Below are positions 7,348 through 14,199 of a stretch of DNA of 64,000 nucleotides, piece by piece. A model generated the notes under the pieces. The model was not told where the DNA came from, searched no databases, and worked only from the letters and a program-made list of their open reading frames with translations. This DNA is from Prosthecobacter sp. (GTDB taxonomy: Bacteria; Verrucomicrobiota; Verrucomicrobiia; Verrucomicrobiales; Verrucomicrobiaceae): positions 93,908 to 157,907 of the forward strand of contig JABARQ010000010.1 in NCBI GenBank assembly GCA_019186985.1. The letters are read 5' to 3'. Position 1 is the first letter of the stretch, and the number at the start of each line of letters is the position of its first letter. A program made the position numbers and the translations under genes.

Positions 7348-8268
7348 ATGAAGGCTGTTGTTTTCCTGCTTCCCCTCCTGCTCCTGGCCGCCTGCAAGCC
7401 CGCCTCCGGTCCCGCGCCACAGACAAGCGCAAGCCGCAATGACGGCAAGCCTCAGGTCTATGTCGCCAACTACCCGCTGAAGTACTTCGCCGAACGCCTC
7501 GGCGGCACACTCGTGGAGGTGCGGTTCCCGGCGCCGGCTGATGAAGACCCGGCCTTCTGGCAGCCTGATGACGCCACCATCTCGGCCTTCCAGGGCGCCG
7601 ATCTCATCCTGATGAACGGGGCCACCTACTCGAAGTGGGCGGAGAAGGTCACGCTGCCTCAGTCGAAGCTGGTCGACACCTCCGCGCCGTTCAAGACCGC
7701 CTACATCGAGATCAAGGCCGAGTCGACCCACAGCCATGGCCCGGGCGGCGAGCACAGCCACAGCGGCACCGCCTTCACCACCTGGACCGACCTTCAGCAG
7801 GCCGTCCAGCAGGCCGCCGAAGTCGCCAAGGCCCTGGAAGGACTGCTTGGTGAGGCGGGCGCGAAGGAGGTGCAGGCCCGCTTCAGCTCCCTCAAGGCCG
7901 ACCTTGAAGCTTTGGATCAACGTTTGTTAGGCGTGGGCAGGCGCATTGCCGGCGCCCCGCTGGTCGCCTCGCATCCCGTGTACCACTATCTGGCGCGCCG
8001 CTACGCGCTGAACCTCCAGGCCGTGCTCTGGGAGCCCGAGGTCGTGCCGGACAGCAAGGCCCTGGACGGTCTGAAGGCGATCCTGGCAAAGCATCCGGCG
8101 AAGTGGATGCTCTGGGAAGGCGATCCCGCTCCTGAAAGCGTCGCCAAACTGGCGGCCCTGGGTGTGCAGAGCCTGGTCTATGACCCCTGCAGCAACGTCC
8201 CTGAAAAAGGCGACTTTCTGAGCGTCCTGAAGACCAATGTGGAGGCGCTTGAAAAGGCCTTCCCCTGA
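7348..8268 (+). CDS. TroA/ZnuA-family metal-binding lipoprotein
   Basis: 306 residues from ATG 7348 (the upstream in-frame region is not signal-like). Signal peptide with lipobox LAAC, lipidation at Cys16. The fold is that of ABC-transporter metal receptors: YPLKYFAERLGG near the N-terminus, a His-rich loop (HSHGPGGEHSHSG), a long backbone helix, then ASHPVYHYLARRYALN and a final VYDPC region. The usual first ligand motif (EPHxW/F) reads DEDPAFWQP here, so that histidine is missing. No permease or ATPase gene lies beside it. Metal (Zn or Mn) is inferred from family. Confidence 0.8.
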   Translation: MKAVVFLLPLLLLAACKPASGPAPQTSASRNDGKPQVYVANYPLKYFAERLGGTLVEVRFPAPADEDPAFWQPDDATISAFQGADLILMNGATYSKWAEKVTLPQSKLVDTSAPFKTAYIEIKAESTHSHGPGGEHSHSGTAFTTWTDLQQAVQQAAEVAKALEGLLGEAGAKEVQARFSSLKADLEALDQRLLGVGRRIAGAPLVASHPVYHYLARRYALNLQAVLWEPEVVPDSKALDGLKAILAKHPAKWMLWEGDPAPESVAKLAALGVQSLVYDPCSNVPEKGDFLSVLKTNVEALEKAFP

Positions 8269-8310
8269 CCTTTCCTAAGGTTGAATTTTTGAAGCCCGCT
8301 GGGTTGGCTT

Positions 8311-8367
8311 CAGAATAATCAAAATTTTTATTTTTCCGGTTGACGCCCTGCCTCATTGTGGCAGAAT
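8311..8367 (+). promoter_or_regulatory. Sigma70-type promoter with AT-rich UP-like tract
   Basis: TTGACG at 8340-8345 is followed after 16 bp by CAGAAT at 8362-8367. The 28 bp upstream (8311-8338) are strikingly AT-rich compared with the genome. This arrangement is typical of strong promoters of stable RNAs. It faces the transcript at 8374-8620. Confidence 0.5.
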
Positions 8368-8373
8368 CCGCGA

Positions 8374-8620
8374 CCTTCGACCAAAGTCATGAACCATCAC
8401 CGACCCATTACCGCAACCGCCATGGCGCTCTCCGAGCGTGGCGGGTTTGCCCGGTGTGGTCGATTTGGAAGAATGGCCACGATCCAGGTCTTGAATGACC
8501 TCGGTTGGAGCAACCCGAAACCCGGAGACATGCGAGCAGTGTCAGCCCTGAGCTGACCGGTACCATACCAGCTTTCCCTCAAAAAGCCCTGCTCGCCTCC
8601 ACTGGCCGCAGGGCTTTTTG
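8374..8620 (+). ncRNA. Candidate small RNA (or 55-aa peptide mRNA)
   Basis: The interval sits between a promoter-like sequence and a strong terminator, so a transcript of about 250 nt is expected. Local hairpins are visible (CGCTC/GAGCG, AGGTC TTGAAT GACCT). A short ORF, ATG 8389 to stop 8556 (55 codons, MNHHRPITATAM...), lies inside but lacks a clear ribosome binding site and resembles nothing I know. I do not recognise 6S, SRP, tmRNA or RNase P signatures. Confidence 0.4.
8581..8619. terminator. Bidirectional terminator
   Basis: AAAAAGCCCTGC (8581-8592) pairs perfectly with GCAGGGCTTTTT (8608-8619). The T-run on either strand makes it usable in both directions. It closes the candidate small transcript. 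Confidence 0.8.
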
Positions 8621-8919
8621 TTGGCCCAAACCCACCTACCCCGCTTTTTCGACCCACCCATTGATCTCTTTCCCAACCTAGACGGTTGACCCCTCAGCAC
8701 GAAAAGCCCCGGCACCTGTTTGCAGCAGTTGACGGGGCGGCAGCCAGCCTTGGCAGACTCCCGGAGGAGCCGAATTGAATGACCGAAGCGTGACCTGAAA
8801 ACAGGCTCGCACCGCAACTCCAGGATGTCAAGACGGACGCCCCATCGAACGCGCTATTTCCCTAAGCTTAGGCTGCGGAAAAGGGGGGCTTTTTGTCCCG
8901 AATTTCACATCACGAAACG

Positions 8920-8996
8920 GCTTCTTAGAAGGTGTGCCAGAAACACCGAAACATCCGCCGTGAAACAGCCTGCGGGTGCGACGCCAGCGATGAGCC
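8920..8996 (+). tRNA. Degenerate tRNA-like element (anticodon unclear)
   Basis: Acceptor GCTTCTT (8920-8926) pairs with GATGAGC (8989-8995), 6 of 7 with two G-T. The D-like arm GGTGT-GCCAGAA-ACACC (8931-8947) is perfect. The T-like arm GCGGG-TGCGACG-CCAGC (8972-8988) pairs 4 of 5. The anticodon arm is not convincing. It is listed because it shares loop types and orientation with the better copies downstream; it may be decayed. Confidence 0.25.
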
Positions 8997-9061
8997 AGCC
9001 CTCATCCCGCGCGTGGCAGCGGTGTTCGTTCTTCGTGGTTGGTCATCAACAGCATGACCAG

Positions 9062-9159
9062 CCATGAAAGGGCACAGAGCGCCGGTGTAGAGGACTGGTG
9101 TGTTGGGTTCGGGGGAATCCACTGACGATGGCATGACCTGCCTCTGTGTCCTTTCATGG
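9062..9159. repeat. 18-bp inverted repeat element
   Basis: CCATGAAAGGGCACAGAG (9062-9079) is inverted at 9142-9159 with one mismatch, enclosing 62 bp. It could be a tiny MITE-like element or an RNA hairpin. No gene is seen inside. Confidence 0.5.
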
Positions 9160-9182
9160 TTGGACGGCAGTCATTCCTTCAT

Positions 9183-9257
9183 ACAGCGGTGGCAGACAAG
9201 CAACGCACGGGCCTCCAAAACCCGCAGATGTGGGGGCAGTACCCACCCGCCGTGCCC
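9183..9257 (+). tRNA. tRNA-Trp-like element (CCA anticodon), non-canonical
   Basis: Acceptor ACAGCGG (9183-9189) pairs with CCGCCGT (9247-9253), 6 of 7. Anticodon arm CGGGC-CTCCAAA-ACCCG (9208-9224) has U33 and anticodon CCA, 4 of 5 pairs. The variable loop is 5 nt. T-arm GTGGG-GGCAGTA-CCCAC (9230-9246) is perfect but its loop is GGCAGTA, not TTCRANY. The D-arm is weak. The 3' end reads G-CCC instead of N-CCA, and a T-run follows. Segment lengths match canonical tRNA numbering. Function unknown; could be a pseudogene. Confidence 0.45.
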
Positions 9258-9313
9258 TTTTTCATCAAGGTAGTGCAGGGCTTCGGCCCGCACATCACCG
9301 TGTGCAGCAAAGA

Positions 9314-9502
9314 GCCGCTTTGCTTTAGCAAGGCGGCCACGAGCTAAAGCTCATGACTGCTTTTCCCAAACGCAGGGAGAGCCAGTGCTCTGCCCGGTCT
9401 CATAAGCCGGGCTCGGCGGGTGCAACTCCCATCCCTGCATCCATTTCCCAGGTGGCTTCGGCTTTAGCCGAATTCATTCCTCTAAAGTGCGATTAAAGTC
9501 GC
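9314..9502. repeat. REP-like hairpins with TTTA/TAAA loops
   Basis: Four small palindromes: GCCGCTTTGC-TTTA-GCAAGGCGGC (9314-9337, one G-T), GAGC-TAAA-GCTC (9341-9352), TTCGGC-TTTA-GCCGAA (9457-9472) and GCGA..TCGC (9489-9502). They form two pairs of a TTTA-loop hairpin followed by a smaller hairpin with an A-rich loop, one pair on each side of the Met-like tRNA element. Confidence 0.5.
9371..9443 (+). tRNA. Initiator tRNA-Met-like element (CAT anticodon), short D-loop
   Basis: Acceptor CGCAGGG (9371-9377) faces CCCTGCA (9433-9439): six pairs and a C1 x A72 mismatch, the hallmark of bacterial initiator tRNA. The anticodon loop CTCATAA equals the initiator loop, with stem CCGGT/GCCGG. The variable loop is 5 nt. 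The T-arm is GCGGG-TGCAACT-CCCAT (3 G-C, one G-T). The end is T73 and an encoded CCA. The D-arm is only GAGC-CAGT-GCTC, lacking the G18G19 segment. Whether it is charged or used cannot be told. Confidence 0.5.
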
Positions 9503-9517
9503 AACGGATTTCAAAGG

Positions 9518-9599
9518 TTCTCCAGCTCAGTCAGTCAGAGTGAGGTGCGGCGCAGAGGATGCTCAGCGGCACGAGACACAAATCTCAACGGAGGATCCA
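9518..9599 (+). tRNA. tRNA-like element, identity unresolved
   Basis: A canonical-looking D-arm GCTC-AGTCAGTCA-GAGT lies at 9525-9541. TTCTCCA (9518-9524) pairs 6 of 7 with CGGAGGA (9589-9595), followed by T and an encoded CCA (9597-9599). A T-like hairpin GAGA-CACAAA-TCTC is at 9573-9586. The central part folds as a longer hairpin (CGCAGAG/CTCAGCG) rather than a normal anticodon arm. It sits 9 nt before the His-like element. Partly decayed or class-II-like. Confidence 0.3.
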
Positions 9600-9607
9600 T
9601 TTCAAAT

Positions 9608-9682
9608 GCTTTTCATGGTGTAACAGCAGCACTTCTCTTTGTGGGAGAGACGGAGTCGGGGCAGCACCGACTGAGAAGCCCA
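9608..9682 (+). tRNA. tRNA-His-like element (GTG anticodon), non-canonical T-loop
   Basis: A complete cloverleaf with normal spacing. Acceptor CTTTTCA/TGAGAAG (one G-T); 2-nt linker; D-arm GTGT-AACAGCA-GCAC; 1-nt linker; anticodon arm TCTCT-TTGTGGG-AGAGA with U33 and anticodon GTG; 4-nt variable loop; T-arm GTCGG-GGCAGCA-CCGAC; C73; encoded CCA at 9680-9682. G at 9608 gives the G-1:C73 pair that marks tRNA-His. The D-loop lacks GG and the T-loop lacks TTC. A standard tRNA-His gene is also present at 20275. Confidence 0.65.
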
Positions 9683-9690
9683 ATTTCAAA

Positions 9691-9827
9691 CGTGCGCACG
9701 GCGAAGTCATCGAGCCCGTGGTTTGCAAGTCCACGGAACCCGGTGCGACCGCCATGCCGCGTGAGCGGCAACATCCAGCGCGAAGCGCCAATCTGTGGAG
9801 ACGGAGTCAATCCGGGGCGCACGTCCA
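9691..9827 (+). tRNA. Interrupted tRNA-Cys-like element (GCA anticodon)
   Basis: The 5' half has canonical geometry: acceptor CGTGCGC (9691-9697), 2-nt linker, D-arm GGC-GAAGTCATCGA-GCC, 1-nt linker, anticodon arm GTGGT-TTGCAAG-TCCAC with anticodon GCA. The exact acceptor complement GCGCACG occurs at 9817-9823, followed by T and an encoded CCA (9825-9827), preceded by a T-like hairpin CGG-AGTCAAT-CCG. Roughly 65 nt separate the halves, so this is either an interrupted tRNA or two fused remnants. CGTGCGCACG is itself palindromic, which weakens the acceptor argument. Confidence 0.35.
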
Positions 9828-9834
9828 GTTTCAT

Positions 9835-9910
9835 CGGATACGAGAGAGCCAGCGAACTCGCTTGATTTGGGGCCAAGACAGGCCCGGGGCAGCACCGGGG
9901 AATCCGACCA
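9835..9910 (+). tRNA. tRNA-Pro-like element (TGG anticodon), non-canonical T-loop
   Basis: Acceptor CGGATAC (9835-9841) with GAATCCG (9900-9906), 6 of 7. D-arm GAG-AGCCAGCGAA-CTC. Anticodon arm CTTGA-TTTGGGG-CCAAG (4 of 5) with U33 and anticodon TGG. 5-nt variable loop ACAGG. T-arm CCCGG-GGCAGCA-CCGGG, perfect. A73 and encoded CCA (9908-9910). The T-loop is identical to the His-like copy. It begins 7 nt after the preceding element, as in tandem tRNA arrays. Confidence 0.55.
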
Positions 9911-9981
9911 TTTTCGCCGCTTCAAATGGCATTCGAAGCCGCGCACCCGAGCCTGTGCATTCATGACGGCAGGCACGGACA

Positions 9982-10116
9982 GATTGGTTCTGCCGTTGGA
10001 CAAAGCGCCAGATTTGCTGCCTGGCCGGCTTCAGCGACAAAACGCTGGAGACTCTGAAACCGCTCGATGCCGACCCAGGCGCGCTGATTCGCGTGATCGA
10101 TGCTGTTGAGCTATGA
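9982..10116 (+). pseudogene. C-terminal gene fragment, copy 1
   Basis: An open stretch without its own start encodes DWFCRWTKRQICCLAGFSDK, then TLETLKPLDADPGALIRVID AVEL and a TGA at 10114. A second copy lies at 12336-12458 with about two-thirds identical residues. The protein of origin is not recognised. The two copies flank the HEPN-like gene as imperfect direct repeats. Confidence 0.55.
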
Positions 10117-10307
10117 GGAGTTGCGACAGCGGAGTGGTGGAGTTTTAGAGTGATACACTTCCGCCTGTTACTCCATGCTCCATTGCTTTGTGCTCTTCAT
10201 CTTCCATTCTGATTCCCACAGTTTACAGCCAAAAAATAATCCCACAAATTCTCCATGTGTCATCTGCCTTCACAGATGCCGTAGCTAGACGAATAACCCC
10301 TCAATTA

Positions 10308-12134
10308 ATGCTCATGAGCGAAAGCGACACATCATCATTCAAAGTAACGGCTCAACAAGTTCTTGAGGTTATTGACCACATAGCAATCACCCAATTGTCT
10401 TTGCGTAAACTTGCAGAACACTTTGGCGACCTTGCCAAAGAGAAAAAGCATCATAGAGCTCTCACAGAGGAACGCGCTTGCCGCCTACTTGTTGCCGCCT
10501 GTTCATTCTTGCCAAACTTCGAATTCAAAGGGAACCCGTTTGGACCATGGTGGCACAACCTGGCGGGTCCAGGAACGCGCTCGCTTATGGCCGAAGACTT
10601 GTGCGATGAAGACATTAATGCCTTGGAAGGCATCGTTACCAGTCTTCAGAACCTCGAACTACGCGCACGAATTGCAGATGTTGTCTGGGAGTGTCGCAAA
10701 AGAAGTCATTTGATTGGCCGCGATGCAATCCAGTCATACATTCAGATCGCCGATGCAATCGGACACAAAGGCGTCAGCTATTTGAGTTACATCCAATGTA
10801 TCGAAAGAGCCGCACAAATCTCGGGAAAGCTTGGGTTAAAATCCACCGAACACTCAGAACTGATTGCCAGTATTCACGCAAGATTGGTTGCTTTGTCACA
10901 CGATGTTGGATCTGCGCGAGTTTGCGGACATCTGATCAGAATACTCTTACAGCACACACTAGCTTATTCAGATCCCCAAGCGCGCATTGCTAAGTCTTTC
11001 GCAAAGCATCTTGAGGGTGAAGGACTATATGATCTCGCCGAAGATTTTTGGAAATTGGCGGAACGCATACACAGACTAGCGCAGCAAAAAGACGATGCCT
11101 GGCAATGCCAATTAAGGGCAGCGGAGTGCTTGGTGGCAATTGCTGACAAACAGAGCGAAAATCCCGATCTCGGTGCATCTGGTTGGATGTTGCGGGCTGT
11201 TGAAGCGTTGAGGAAGGCGAAAGCACCTCCTGAGAGAATTGCATATGCGCACAAACGCCTGCTGGAACTTCAGCAACAGACGCTCAAAACATTTAAGTCT
11301 ATTCCTTTGGACATTATCCAGAGATCGGACTTTCAGGAGCAGTTTGAGCGTTGCACAAATGAAGTTCGCGCCAAGGTTAGCGAACTAACATTCAGAGATT
11401 CTTTGATATTCCTTGCAACCCAAATTCTGCCGACAAACTGGCAGGAGCATCGAGAAGCCACGCTCGAACATTTAAAAAGCAATGTTTGGGCAGGGATAGT
11501 GAATACGGTTCAGTTGGACCATTCGGGCAAAATCTCCGAAAGCATGGCCCCCAAGTTATTCGGAGAGTTGGACGAAGAGTTTATTAAACAAAAAATGCTC
11601 GAAGGCGCGCGTCAGACTACCTGGCCTGTAATTGTTAATCTTTGGATCGATCCAGTTCGTCAAACCATCGTAAATTTACATGGAGCGAGGTATCATGACT
11701 TGGCATTTTTGGTGACAAACAATCCGTTTGTCCGAGAGGGGCGCGAAGGGCTTTACCTTCGAGGTATTCAAGCCGGTTTTTATGGTGATTGGGCTGTGGC
11801 AACACATCTTCTTGCACCACAAATTGAGGATTCAATTCGGCGAGTGCTTCAACTCAGAGGAAAAGTGACTTCCACGTTGGACTCTGGGATTCAACAGGAA
11901 CGGGACATAAACCAACTCCTTTGGGCCGATGGTATTGTCGAAGCTTTTGGGCCAGACATTCTCTTCGATTTGCGAGGCATATTGATCGAACGTTTCGGCT
12001 ACAACTTGAGAAACGATATGGCTCATGGCCTCTTGAATGAAGGTGACTTCTATGACGTGAGCTCGGTCTATCTGTGGTGGTTGAGTATAATGCTCTGCTG
12101 GCGAGGATACTGTATCGCTAATCTGTCAGAATGA
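10308..12134 (+). CDS. DUF4209-like protein with C-terminal HEPN-type motif
   Basis: 608 residues from ATG 10308; ATG 10314 is also possible and the frame is open from 10188. The bulk is alpha-helical with no transmembrane segment. The C-terminus (about 560-608) reads DLRGILIERFGYNLRNDMAH and then GLLNEGDF; the RNDMAH is an R-x4-H motif with Asn after Arg, as in HEPN ribonucleases, and the region matches the conserved end of DUF4209 proteins. HEPN proteins often cut tRNA or other RNA in conflict systems. The gene is clearly less GC-rich than its neighbours, suggesting transfer. It is flanked by direct-repeat gene fragments and preceded by the tRNA-like array. Function is inferred. Confidence 0.65.
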   Translation: MLMSESDTSSFKVTAQQVLEVIDHIAITQLSLRKLAEHFGDLAKEKKHHRALTEERACRLLVAACSFLPNFEFKGNPFGPWWHNLAGPGTRSLMAEDLCDEDINALEGIVTSLQNLELRARIADVVWECRKRSHLIGRDAIQSYIQIADAIGHKGVSYLSYIQCIERAAQISGKLGLKSTEHSELIASIHARLVALSHDVGSARVCGHLIRILLQHTLAYSDPQARIAKSFAKHLEGEGLYDLAEDFWKLAERIHRLAQQKDDAWQCQLRAAECLVAIADKQSENPDLGASGWMLRAVEALRKAKAPPERIAYAHKRLLELQQQTLKTFKSIPLDIIQRSDFQEQFERCTNEVRAKVSELTFRDSLIFLATQILPTNWQEHREATLEHLKSNVWAGIVNTVQLDHSGKISESMAPKLFGELDEEFIKQKMLEGARQTTWPVIVNLWIDPVRQTIVNLHGARYHDLAFLVTNNPFVREGREGLYLRGIQAGFYGDWAVATHLLAPQIEDSIRRVLQLRGKVTSTLDSGIQQERDINQLLWADGIVEAFGPDILFDLRGILIERFGYNLRNDMAHGLLNEGDFYDVSSVYLWWLSIMLCWRGYCIANLSE

Positions 12135-12240
12135 ATTGCGAGGAATCCAACACTTTTCAATTAGCACCAAGTACGAACACCGCTGCCGGGACCCTCGCTC
12201 CCATTTCTCATCTTCCATCCCTCCACTCACCCACCACCAT

Positions 12241-12458
12241 GAAACCCAACGACCTCATCCGACTCGGCGTGCCGCAGGGCGCGGCGATCCAGTCTGGCAT
12301 GGACTTCATCGCGAAGTTCATGACGACAGGCACGGGTGGACACGTTCCGCCGCTGGAAGGAGCGCCAGGTTTGCTGCCTGGCCGGCTTCAACGACAAAGC
12401 GCTCGAAACCCTGAAACTGCTCGACGCCAAGCCTGACGTGCTGATCCACGTGATCTAG
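12241..12458 (+). pseudogene. RtcB-like N-terminal remnant fused to gene fragment copy 2
   Basis: ATG 12241 encodes MKPNDLIRLGVPQGAAIQSG MDFIAKFM, which resembles the start of a family of RtcB RNA ligases (inference from memory). After about 30 codons the frame changes and the sequence becomes the second copy of the fragment seen at 9982-10116 (12336-12458, RWKERQVCCLAGFNDKALET...), ending in a TAG where copy 1 has GAT. No RtcB catalytic His/Cys region remains. It immediately precedes the RlaP-type gene, a known partner of RtcB. Confidence 0.45.
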
Positions 12459-12551
12459 GCGGTGGAGCTTTCGTGAAACTCAACTCACTTGGCCCGCCGT
12501 CCATCCCGGACGGCGGCCTTCATTTACAAATCGATAGAAAGGAGGTTCTCC

Positions 12552-13331
12552 ATGCAAAACAACGAAGTATTCCAGCGCGTCCGCAACGCGCTCGCTCGCC
12601 TCGGGGCCGAGCGGAACGTGCGCGTGCTCTACGCTTGCGAAAGCGGCAGCCGCGCGTGGGGTTTCGCCTCGCGGGACAGCGATTATGATGTCCGCTTCCT
12701 ATACGTTCACCCAAGTGACTGGTATCTGTCCGTTGAAGACCGTCGCGACGTGATCGAGGAGCCGCTGAACGATGAACTCGATGTCAGCGGCTGGGAACTG
12801 CGCAAGGCGCTAAGACTGCTCCGCAAAAGCAATCCGACGCTGCTCGAATGGCTGCAGTCACCCGTTGTGTATCAGCACGACGCCGTCTTCACTCGCGAGT
12901 TTGGCGAGCTTTCGGAGCGCTTCTATTCGCCCCGACGTTGTTTCACTCACTACCTGCACATGGCGTCGGGCAACTGGCGCCAGCACCTCGAAGGTCGCGG
13001 GCAGGTCAGTCTGAAGAAACATCTCTACGTCTTCCGGCCGCTGCTTGCCTGCCGATGGATCGAGCGTTCGCTCGGCCAGGTGCCGATGCCCTTCCATGAG
13101 CTGGTTGAAGCAGTGCTCGAAGAACGCGAGGTCCGCGAGGCGCTCAACGCACTCGTGGCACGCAAGCAGGCTGGTGTTGAATTCTCCGTCGCGCCTCCCG
13201 ATGAAGTGCTTTCGCGCTTCGTTGTGCAGGAACTACAGCGTCTGAAGGCTCTCAACAAGCCTGAAGAGGCCGCAGGTGACGTGAGTGCCTTGAACAGCTT
13301 CTTCCGTCGCTATGCGCTGTATGGAGTTTAG
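12552..13331 (+). CDS. RlaP/YcgL-type nucleotidyltransferase (PF10127)
   Basis: 259 residues from ATG 12552, preceded by a perfect AGGAGG (12540-12545), which fixes the start. Polymerase-beta superfamily motif: GSRAWGF at 32-38, then DSDYDVRF at 42-49 with the two metal-binding aspartates; a third acidic residue is likely in NDELDVSGWEL. The rest matches the helical C-terminal part of this family. RlaP proteins are encoded next to RtcB RNA ligases and proposed to act in RNA repair; the remnant upstream fits. The gene is intact and has a strong translation signal, so it is probably expressed. Confidence 0.85.
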   Translation: MQNNEVFQRVRNALARLGAERNVRVLYACESGSRAWGFASRDSDYDVRFLYVHPSDWYLSVEDRRDVIEEPLNDELDVSGWELRKALRLLRKSNPTLLEWLQSPVVYQHDAVFTREFGELSERFYSPRRCFTHYLHMASGNWRQHLEGRGQVSLKKHLYVFRPLLACRWIERSLGQVPMPFHELVEAVLEEREVREALNALVARKQAGVEFSVAPPDEVLSRFVVQELQRLKALNKPEEAAGDVSALNSFFRRYALYGV

Positions 13332-13382: not shown

Positions 13383-13590
13383 TGCATTCAACCACTTCGC
13401 TGCAAGGCCCCACTGTCGCGTGACGCCCTCGGCAACACGATCAATCCCCATTCTTCGAACTTCGAATTTTTTCTGACCAACTTGCCACTTGGCAAACCGG
13501 GACCGCTGACTAGCCTCACCGTCCCAGAACGAACAGCGCTGCCCGCCCAGACGGGCCGTGATGCTCGAAACACACTTCTCAGCCCCGTTT

Positions 13591-14199
13591 ATGAGTGACG
13601 TTCTGAACAAATCGACGGTTTTGGTCCTGAACCGAAACTGGCAGGCCATCGCCGTCAAAACGCCCGCCGAAGCCTTCAGCATGATGGCCACCGGCAATGC
13701 CACCGCCCTCAAGATCTCCGGAGACGATGACATGACTCCCGTGACCTTTGAGGAATGGATGGGCCTGCCCGTGCTCGAAGGCGACAACTGCATCGGCACC
13801 GTCAAGGGCCCGGTGCGCGTGCCCACCGTCCTGGTGCTGGCCCGGTTTGACCGCGTGCCCAAGCGCCGCCCGAAGTTCTGCGCCAAGGCCATCTGGGAGC
13901 GCGACGGAGGCGTCTGCCAGTACACCGGCCGCAAGCTCAAGCCGAACGAGGGGAACATCGACCACATCGTGCCCGTCTCCAGGGGTGGCAAGAGCACCTG
14001 GGACAACTGCGTGCTGGCCGACAAGAAGGTGAACAGCCGCAAGGGCTCCAAGCTTCCTGAAGAAGCCGGGCTGAAGCTGCTGCGCCGTCCTGCCGCCCCT
14101 CGCGAGGTGCCGGTGAGCCAGCTCATCCGCAACACCTATCAGGTGCGCGACTGGGAGGTCTTCCTGGAAAGCCGGGGCGCCTTTGACGTGACCGTCTGA
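13591..14199 (+). CDS. HNH endonuclease family protein
   Basis: 202 residues from ATG 13591 (MSDVLNKSTVLVLNRNWQAI); the frame is open upstream to 13558. The N-terminal module (VLVLNRNWQAIAV..PAEAF) is typical of stand-alone bacterial HNH proteins of the McrA-like group. The HNH core is CQYTGRKL, then NIDHIVPVSRGGKSTWDNCV and DKKVNSRKG, containing DH, N and the second His/Asn positions; the usual zinc-binding CxxC pairs are reduced. DNA target and role are unknown; in Verrucomicrobiota such genes are common and not clearly defence-linked. Confidence 0.8.
   Translation: MSDVLNKSTVLVLNRNWQAIAVKTPAEAFSMMATGNATALKISGDDDMTPVTFEEWMGLPVLEGDNCIGTVKGPVRVPTVLVLARFDRVPKRRPKFCAKAIWERDGGVCQYTGRKLKPNEGNIDHIVPVSRGGKSTWDNCVLADKKVNSRKGSKLPEEAGLKLLRRPAAPREVPVSQLIRNTYQVRDWEVFLESRGAFDVTV

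Follow-up and report, generated by a model that had tools for sequence, protein, structure and literature searches.

RNA-repair operons that combine RtcB, RlaP, and Ro60 were reportedly delineated by Burroughs and Aravind in 2016. A supernumerary set of transfer RNAs (tRNAs) is known from Anabaena, whose trn operon, according to passages of the published account, holds 26 such genes that are silent until translational stress and are repressed by TrcR together with rtcB (PMC10272220). In ordinary tRNAs, the relevant sections of two further accounts build the elbow from the pairs G19-C56 and G18-U55 and treat G18 and U55 as highly or universally conserved (PMC4810234, PMC7912444). Here, we analyzed a stretch of 64,000 nucleotides (nt) from a Prosthecobacter sp. 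genome (GenBank assembly GCA_019186985.1, contig JABARQ010000010.1, positions 93,908 to 157,907), hereafter the window, in which a preliminary description had placed six or seven tRNA-like elements head to tail on the plus strand at 8920-9910. We lean toward the reading that an RNA-repair island survives in the window in reduced form, and that its intact counterparts in related bacteria carry a second, altered-elbow set of predicted tRNAs, likely a stress-induced reserve. The structural side of this reading is well supported, with the array, its order and anticodons, the covarying elbow, the RlaP, RtcB, Ro60, and HNH neighbors, the phage-like arrays, and the truncation of Ro60 and RtcB in the window all legible in the sequences, and the function is a step that we infer.

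The array escaped standard annotation in the window, as had been anticipated: ARAGORN, and Rfam at its gathering threshold, called only two tRNAs there, both outside 8920-9910. A covariance model built from 37 array tRNAs of relatives (R1), run with filters off over 6,001 bases of the window, detected Trp, CAU, His, and Pro elements with E-values from 5.3e-13 to 1.4e-4, and these matches together with the pair counts indicated a cloverleaf of acceptor, D, anticodon, and T stems, complete in His and with fewer pairs in the others. The His(GUG) element (9609-9682, plus strand, as are all array elements given here; 48.8 bits, E 5.3e-13) carries G at -1 (9608), the T-loop GGCAGCA, and, in agreement with the earlier count, all 21 stem pairs. 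Compared with seven relatives, it showed six compensated pairs (both sides changed, pairing kept) in five of them and five in another, the seventh (locus L039) being identical, and conservation of the stems in related genomes, the lack of which would have counted against the preliminary description, was found. The Trp(CCA) element (9183-9257; 43.8 bits, E 1.5e-11) has the elbow A18 G19 / G55 C56, forms 17 of 21 pairs, and ends in CCC, not CCA; it is 72-93% identical to the six relatives compared, in which two or three of its broken pairs are intact. The CAU element (Met or Ile; 9371-9443; 24.7 bits, E 6.5e-6) has a 4-nt D-loop, CAGU, and the T-loop UGCAACU, and it resembles the tymovirus tRNA-like family RF00233 at 37.0 bits (E 1.6e-5), below the gathering score of 40. 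Pairs that are formed in relatives and lost here number up to three in Trp and up to two in CAU. A tRNA-Sec match (E 0.61) lies at the place of the tymovirus match; all other Rfam matches at 8200-10300 were at chance level and were set aside.

The Pro(UGG) element (9835-9910; 20.1 bits, E 1.4e-4) has AG in the D-loop, the T-loop GGCAGCA, and an encoded CCA, with closely similar copies in the same-genus loci L035, L044, L033, and L040. The Cys(GCA) element (9692-9827) is interrupted in the T-loop by about 62 extra nt, which form a palindromic insert (~9750-9811) of a family found in other array tRNAs, and its orthologue in L035 is uninterrupted. A further segment, 9516-9599, which the preliminary description had listed as unresolved, holds a second such insert (~9541-9583), has the 3' end of the array Thr tRNAs, and directly precedes His, like Thr in relatives; by insert match, 3' end, and position, we read it as a probable Thr relic. 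The spacers among the last four elements are 9, 9, and 7 nt, within the 7-9 nt given in the preliminary description. The head-to-tail elements on the plus strand are therefore real by their R1 matches and their relatives, with the exception of the first (~8920-9000), for which a tRNA reading was rejected because the segment is part of a conserved leader RNA. About six array genes are left in the window, two of them (Cys, Thr) interrupted, versus 28 in L035.

The intact form of the locus was recovered from relatives. RlaP (PF10127) had 36 matching places, spread over 28 of the 56 genomes examined; besides the window, 14 of these places, of the strong RlaP type, were taken with long flanks, and 13 of them belong to the same genus (L033-L045). 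A many-tRNA array lies upstream of RlaP in all 13, and L032, from another family, gave no array match within its 8 kb. By tblastn, the same-genus loci contain RtcB in 11 cases (it is missing in L034, and the sequence of L045 stops inside RlaP), HNH in 12, and the Ro60 C-terminus in 7, the same seven that gave TROVE profile matches. The RNA ligase RtcB thus adjoins RlaP in relatives, and the window retains an intact RlaP and a fragment of RtcB. In L035, Pfam identified TROVE, RlaP, RtcB, and HNH, and the array comprises 28 tRNA elements for all 20 amino acids, in the order Trp Tyr Met Asp Ala Asn Arg Ser Ile Phe Gly Arg Gly Thr, followed by His Cys Pro Met Gln Leu Leu Leu Arg Ser Glu Leu Lys Val. 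Of these, 24 were found by R1, and the gaps yielded four more by eye: Tyr, which ARAGORN likewise called, two Ser, and Pro. ARAGORN called 15 of the 28, so that the expected failure of a standard gene finder holds only in part outside the window. Order and anticodons are largely kept between genomes, among the matches listed. The arrays are additional to dispersed tRNAs, of which the window genome has 44 places, with 55 in genome G029 and 51 in G001 (array members counted).

The lack of G18G19 and of a TTCRANY T-loop, pointed out in the preliminary description, was confirmed, and the letters that replace these motifs proved to be shared and covarying in relatives. We pooled 538 unique sequences from all aligned matches, housekeeping matches among them, restricting D-loops to 6-10 nt and T-loops to 7 nt. 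Residues 18/55 were A/G in 364, G/U in 97, G/G in 27, U/G in 20, and C/G in 20, with the remaining 10 in other classes or left unassigned, counts that depend on the register, because residue 19 was placed so as to complement 56, with G favored at 18 and A as second choice, and in which the CAU elements, misaligned by R1, fall into the U18 class. A18/U55 was absent from this table, and a single earlier assignment of that kind (L171) was not repeated in it. Residue 56 was other than C in 31 sequences, and its complement stood at 19 in 29 of them, where permutation gave 13.8 (p 2e-4, as low as 5,000 permutations allow; these ignore kinship and used the identical register for real and permuted loops); all four Watson-Crick pairs (G-C, U-A, C-G, and A-U) occurred at 19-56. 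Orthologues of Arg(UCU) carry both states, with the D- and T-loop changing together (U55 in 2 of 7, G55 in 5 of 7). Most array members have G55 and so depart from the combination of G18G19 with U54 U55 C56, and all 31 unique housekeeping tRNAs recovered from the window genome, from loci around 30 of its 44 tRNA places, were GG/TTC. Because the alternative elbow is shared and covaries in the intact arrays of relatives, the absence of the GG and TTC motifs is mostly not a sign of decay. Arrays with A18/G55 were not found in the titles and abstracts of the literature searched, a search with subscription journals mostly outside its coverage and hence no proof of novelty.

Similar arrays exist beyond the genus. 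A search of viral contigs for an altered T-loop pattern, CCATTTCA, which required GGTGC, returned 47 loci, several of them near-copies of one another, with 436 R1 matches. The best 150 of these matches were aligned once, and a later alignment held 143 (from 11 chosen loci, nine of them with matches), of which 81 were AG/GC and 40 GG/TC, an altered-elbow share that is inflated by the training of R1 on array tRNAs and by the GGTGC demanded in the pattern. The loci varied widely, AG/GC accounting for 19 of 20 in L197 and just 2 of 21 in L200. Viral contigs with many altered elbows are 98-225 kb long. Terminase genes are present on L191, in which RlaP (80%) follows the array, and on L186, which also has a portal gene and RtcB (60%); L185 has RtcB (69%). 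Overall, RlaP or RtcB occurred on 3 of the 47 viral loci and HNH homologues on 11, and no Ro60 match was found in any of the 47. Searches of GenBank phages (one record) and PLSDB plasmids (six records) gave weak matches only. One of the loci examined, on a Mycolicibacterium alvei plasmid (L207), shows weak DNA similarity to the array (66.5%) at a place with no listed genes and with an HNH gene nearby.

Within the phylum, 288 genomes were searched and, among the matches listed, clusters were picked for several strong ones, plus genome G018, giving seven further loci, one of them from the same genus. RtcB and HNH lie near the array in six and Ro60 in two, and L231 has none of the three; AG/GC elbows made up 89 of 114 matches in these loci. 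Among 80 named RlaP loci, altered arrays were present in Verrucomicrobiaceae UBA2429 (L076) and MAG-17 (L120), and Verrucomicrobium BvORR106 (L077) had RlaP and HNH with no array match. Two Cohnella loci (L127 and L137) combine RlaP, Ro60, and RtcB with four or eight ARAGORN tRNAs of ordinary elbow, so the tRNA-bearing repair island is wider than the altered elbow. The suggestion that the elements are divergent mobile-element tRNAs was therefore close, since like arrays occur both on phage-like contigs (L191, L186) and in Verrucomicrobiota RNA-repair islands.

Identity elements suggest that the array members could be charged. For altered-elbow members in relatives, 21 of 25 anticodon groups have a majority discriminator that suits the isotype, compared with a permutation mean of 11.5 (p ~1e-5, with kinship ignored); the expected discriminators came from general knowledge and the housekeeping tRNAs recovered, with A or G allowed for Arg. 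The Ala pair G3:U70 is present in 10 of 10, and the Ser and Tyr array copies have long variable arms. On the reserve reading, the array transcript would be processed into tRNAs that would be charged and used by the ribosome, and, by analogy with the Anabaena trn operon, the set would sustain translation for as long as cut tRNAs are under repair by RlaP and RtcB. The A18/G55 elbow would keep the L-shape through the pair 19-56, and it would remove U55, the substrate of the Psi55 synthase, together with G18 and the ordinary 18-55 contact. It may thereby make the set a poor substrate for tRNA-cutting enzymes, or otherwise mark the pool as distinct from that of the host; nuclease resistance through the elbow is thus a putative property.

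Several observations weigh against a translating reserve. The four discriminator misfits are the two Gly groups, Phe, and His, with A73 in 14 of 14 Gly, A73 in 11 of 14 His, and G73 in 8 of 11 Phe. The array Leu tRNAs have no long variable arm, being 73-77 nt long (one miscalled 96-nt element aside) versus 85-86 nt for the native ones, which speaks against normal Leu charging. By our count, codon cover is incomplete, Ser UCU/UCC/UCA and Leu CUA having no obvious reader. Ro60 gave no match beside the array in 6 of the 13 same-genus loci and is therefore not essential, and most of the array is gone in the window itself. In Anabaena lacking TrcR, deletion of trn left resistance to kasugamycin and BMAA unchanged, according to the part of the report that treats this deletion (PMC10272220).

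An unlikely explanation, though the strongest rival, is that the array RNAs have no part in translation and act as decoys or sponges, each tRNA species having its own decoy to occupy anticodon nucleases or other tRNA-acting toxins, and RlaP and RtcB repairing whatever is cut. At least one element per amino acid with conserved anticodons would suit such a role, as would the short Leu variable arms and the off-type Gly discriminators, and competitive inhibition of an anticodon nuclease was raised by Hughes et al., in the section bearing on it, for the tRNA-like YrlA RNA encoded with RtcB (PMC7790460). An anticodon decoy, however, would have no need of conserved discriminators and the Ala G3:U70 pair, and the CCA ends are mostly encoded in the arrays, among the matches listed. 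Decoys, already named in the preliminary description, thus stay in contention as a rival, and the discriminators and the Ala pair, judged from sequence, favor chargeable tRNAs.

Less probable again, and in our view doubtful, is a purely phage-derived supplement to translation, in which the arrays match codon usage, persist on chromosomes as remains of domesticated prophages, and have no role in damage. The 98-225 kb viral contigs with many altered elbows, and the terminase and portal genes of L191 (terminase) and L186 (both), accord with it. The chromosomal arrays, however, keep their order and anticodons across the genus, mostly with the same flanking genes, and RlaP or RtcB also reaches the viral loci. 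We find it quite improbable that the elements are Ro60-bound regulatory RNAs, that is, Y-RNA-like tRNA mimics gating Ro60 or a Ro60-nuclease machine; Ro60/TROVE follows the array in 7 of 13 loci and a weak YrlA match (37.9 bits against a gathering score of 69) follows it in L035, but the six array loci and the 47 viral loci with no Ro60 match fit poorly, and, unlike a Y stem joined to a tRNA module, each element is a full tRNA in its own right with a conserved anticodon. Chance, or decay of ordinary tRNAs to functionless sequence in every genome, to which the partly broken window copies might point, has a negligible likelihood given the significant R1 matches, the compensated stem pairs, the order kept between genomes, and the covariation of 19 with 56, and it is contradicted for the relatives. 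The earlier mention of decayed tRNAs remains apt for the window copy, with its roughly six genes, Cys and Thr inserts, Trp CCC end, and Ro60 and RtcB fragments, but not for the loop motifs, which represent an alternative elbow. In the window's genome, the system as a whole is probably no longer functional.

Beyond the reserve reading, we raise as a tentative possibility, one that may well not hold, a parallel tRNA system shared by bacteria and phages: a full second pool with a recoded elbow (A18/G55, which lacks the pseudouridine 55 site) that would be accepted by the ribosome, would escape tRNA-cutting defenses and toxins, and would be exchanged among phages and chromosomes along with RlaP, RtcB, and Ro60 for tRNA-damage immunity and counter-immunity. 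If the proposed interpretation is true, sets covering the 20 amino acids in which both letters change at once, found in bacteria, on phage-like contigs, and next to RNA-repair genes, would demonstrate that cells can rebuild the tRNA elbow. The altered elbow would also account for the incomplete detection of such arrays by standard tRNA finders, and the notion of a separate tRNA pool that resists attack could be tested directly.

The array is preceded by a structured leader RNA (8930-9165, plus strand), which consists of a near-invariant core of ~100 nt and a long hairpin at 9058-9163. It can be aligned in 12 loci, the window included (L034 has the leader and is not among them), with 67 consensus pairs, 15 of which are compensated on both sides in one sequence or more, and the fold z-score for 8925-9182 is -3.99. 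The core pattern occurred in 24 of 35 genomes of the genus (that of the window being one), in 0 of 21 other genomes, and in none of the viral contigs searched. By eye, CCAGCC within the leader hairpins (9041-9170 in the window) has two alternative partner strands, one upstream and one downstream, and both pairings seem kept in relatives, which makes a switch ahead of the array possible. Before the leader, 8584-8925 is 67-75% identical to relatives and includes an inverted repeat resembling a terminator (8694-8710 / 8885-8901); it is possibly another small RNA.

The inserts noted in Cys and Thr belong to a family of 61-70 nt palindromic elements in the T-loops of differing array tRNAs, with members at 8959-9019 in L033, 11724-11791 in L036 and 10997-11058 in L037 (both as oriented), and 1045-1114 in L041. 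Almost all matches in the loci searched lie in or adjoining arrays, with a few weak exceptions such as L041 5602-5633 and window 13190-13221. Introns spliced by RtcB were considered and rejected: members of the family lie in either orientation, as a palindromic mobile DNA element would more readily explain.

Downstream of the array in the window, all on the plus strand, lie the protein genes of the island and their remnants. RlaP, the RNA-repair nucleotidyltransferase, is an intact open reading frame (12489-13331; PF10127, 301.5 bits) with 90.7% identity to the RlaP of L035, and it is followed by an HNH endonuclease gene (13558-14199; Pfam HNH) with homologues near arrays in relatives and on phage-like contigs. 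Only the N-terminal end of RtcB is left (12174-12376; tblastn with L035 RtcB, residues 23-90, E 2.7e-11), and the sole RtcB match of the window's genome sits on another contig. Ro60 (TROVE) is reduced to its C-terminal end, present at 9994-10113 (tblastn, 82.5% over residues 436-475 of L035 Ro60, E 2e-15) and again at 12327-12470 (56% over residues 405-475, E 5e-15), and no TROVE match was found anywhere in the window's own genome. The region of the second remnant is an 80% DNA repeat of 9960-10112; this 153-nt repeat was at first read as RtcB, a reading dropped for the Ro60 C-terminus. Between the two Ro60 copies lies a DUF7380/DUF4209 gene (10188-12134; Pfam), a candidate phage-defense gene by PADLOC (PDC-S39, 415 bits), which had no tblastn match in L032-L045 and is thus outside the island in relatives; a PDB sequence search with the DUF4209 protein gave none. 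By eye, its product shows an RNDMAH motif that looks HEPN-like and that we take to link it to the HEPN family. In relatives, GGCAGYKAG-type repeats stand between the last tRNA and Ro60 (L035 3603-4238, L045 4445-4960), and the weak YrlA (RF02553) match lies in one of those in L035; the repeats are perhaps the Y RNAs of this locus's Ro60. Rfam gave no YrlA match in the window region.

The closest precedents, by analogy, would be the Anabaena trn operon and, for the letters of the elbow, the tymovirus tRNA-like structures. The loss of a GG elbow motif in a special-purpose tRNA has a parallel in the non-proteinogenic tRNA-Gly of Staphylococcus, which serves cell-wall synthesis without G18G19, but it concerns a single isotype outside any array. 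The operon of Anabaena PCC 7120 likewise is a long supernumerary array beyond a full housekeeping set and, in the passages describing it, is co-regulated with rtcB (PMC10272220), whereas the arrays described here are physically linked to RlaP, mostly to RtcB and HNH, and often to Ro60. Most members of the present arrays have the A18/G55 elbow. The RNA-repair operons, as outlined in parts of the accounts of Salmonella rsr-yrlBA-rtcBA (PMC7790460) and of RlaP (PMC6514570, PMC7824862), share the RNA ligase, the end-restoring nucleotidyltransferase, and Ro60, but in place of Y RNAs alone the present islands hold individual tRNAs, which cover all amino acids and can number in the tens. The tymovirus/pomovirus family RF00233 has the same A18/G55 and G19-C56 letters in its Rfam consensus (D-loop CAGU, T-loop UGCAACU), whereas the array members have ordinary 7-bp acceptor stems and are genes in arrays, not the 3' ends of viral RNAs.

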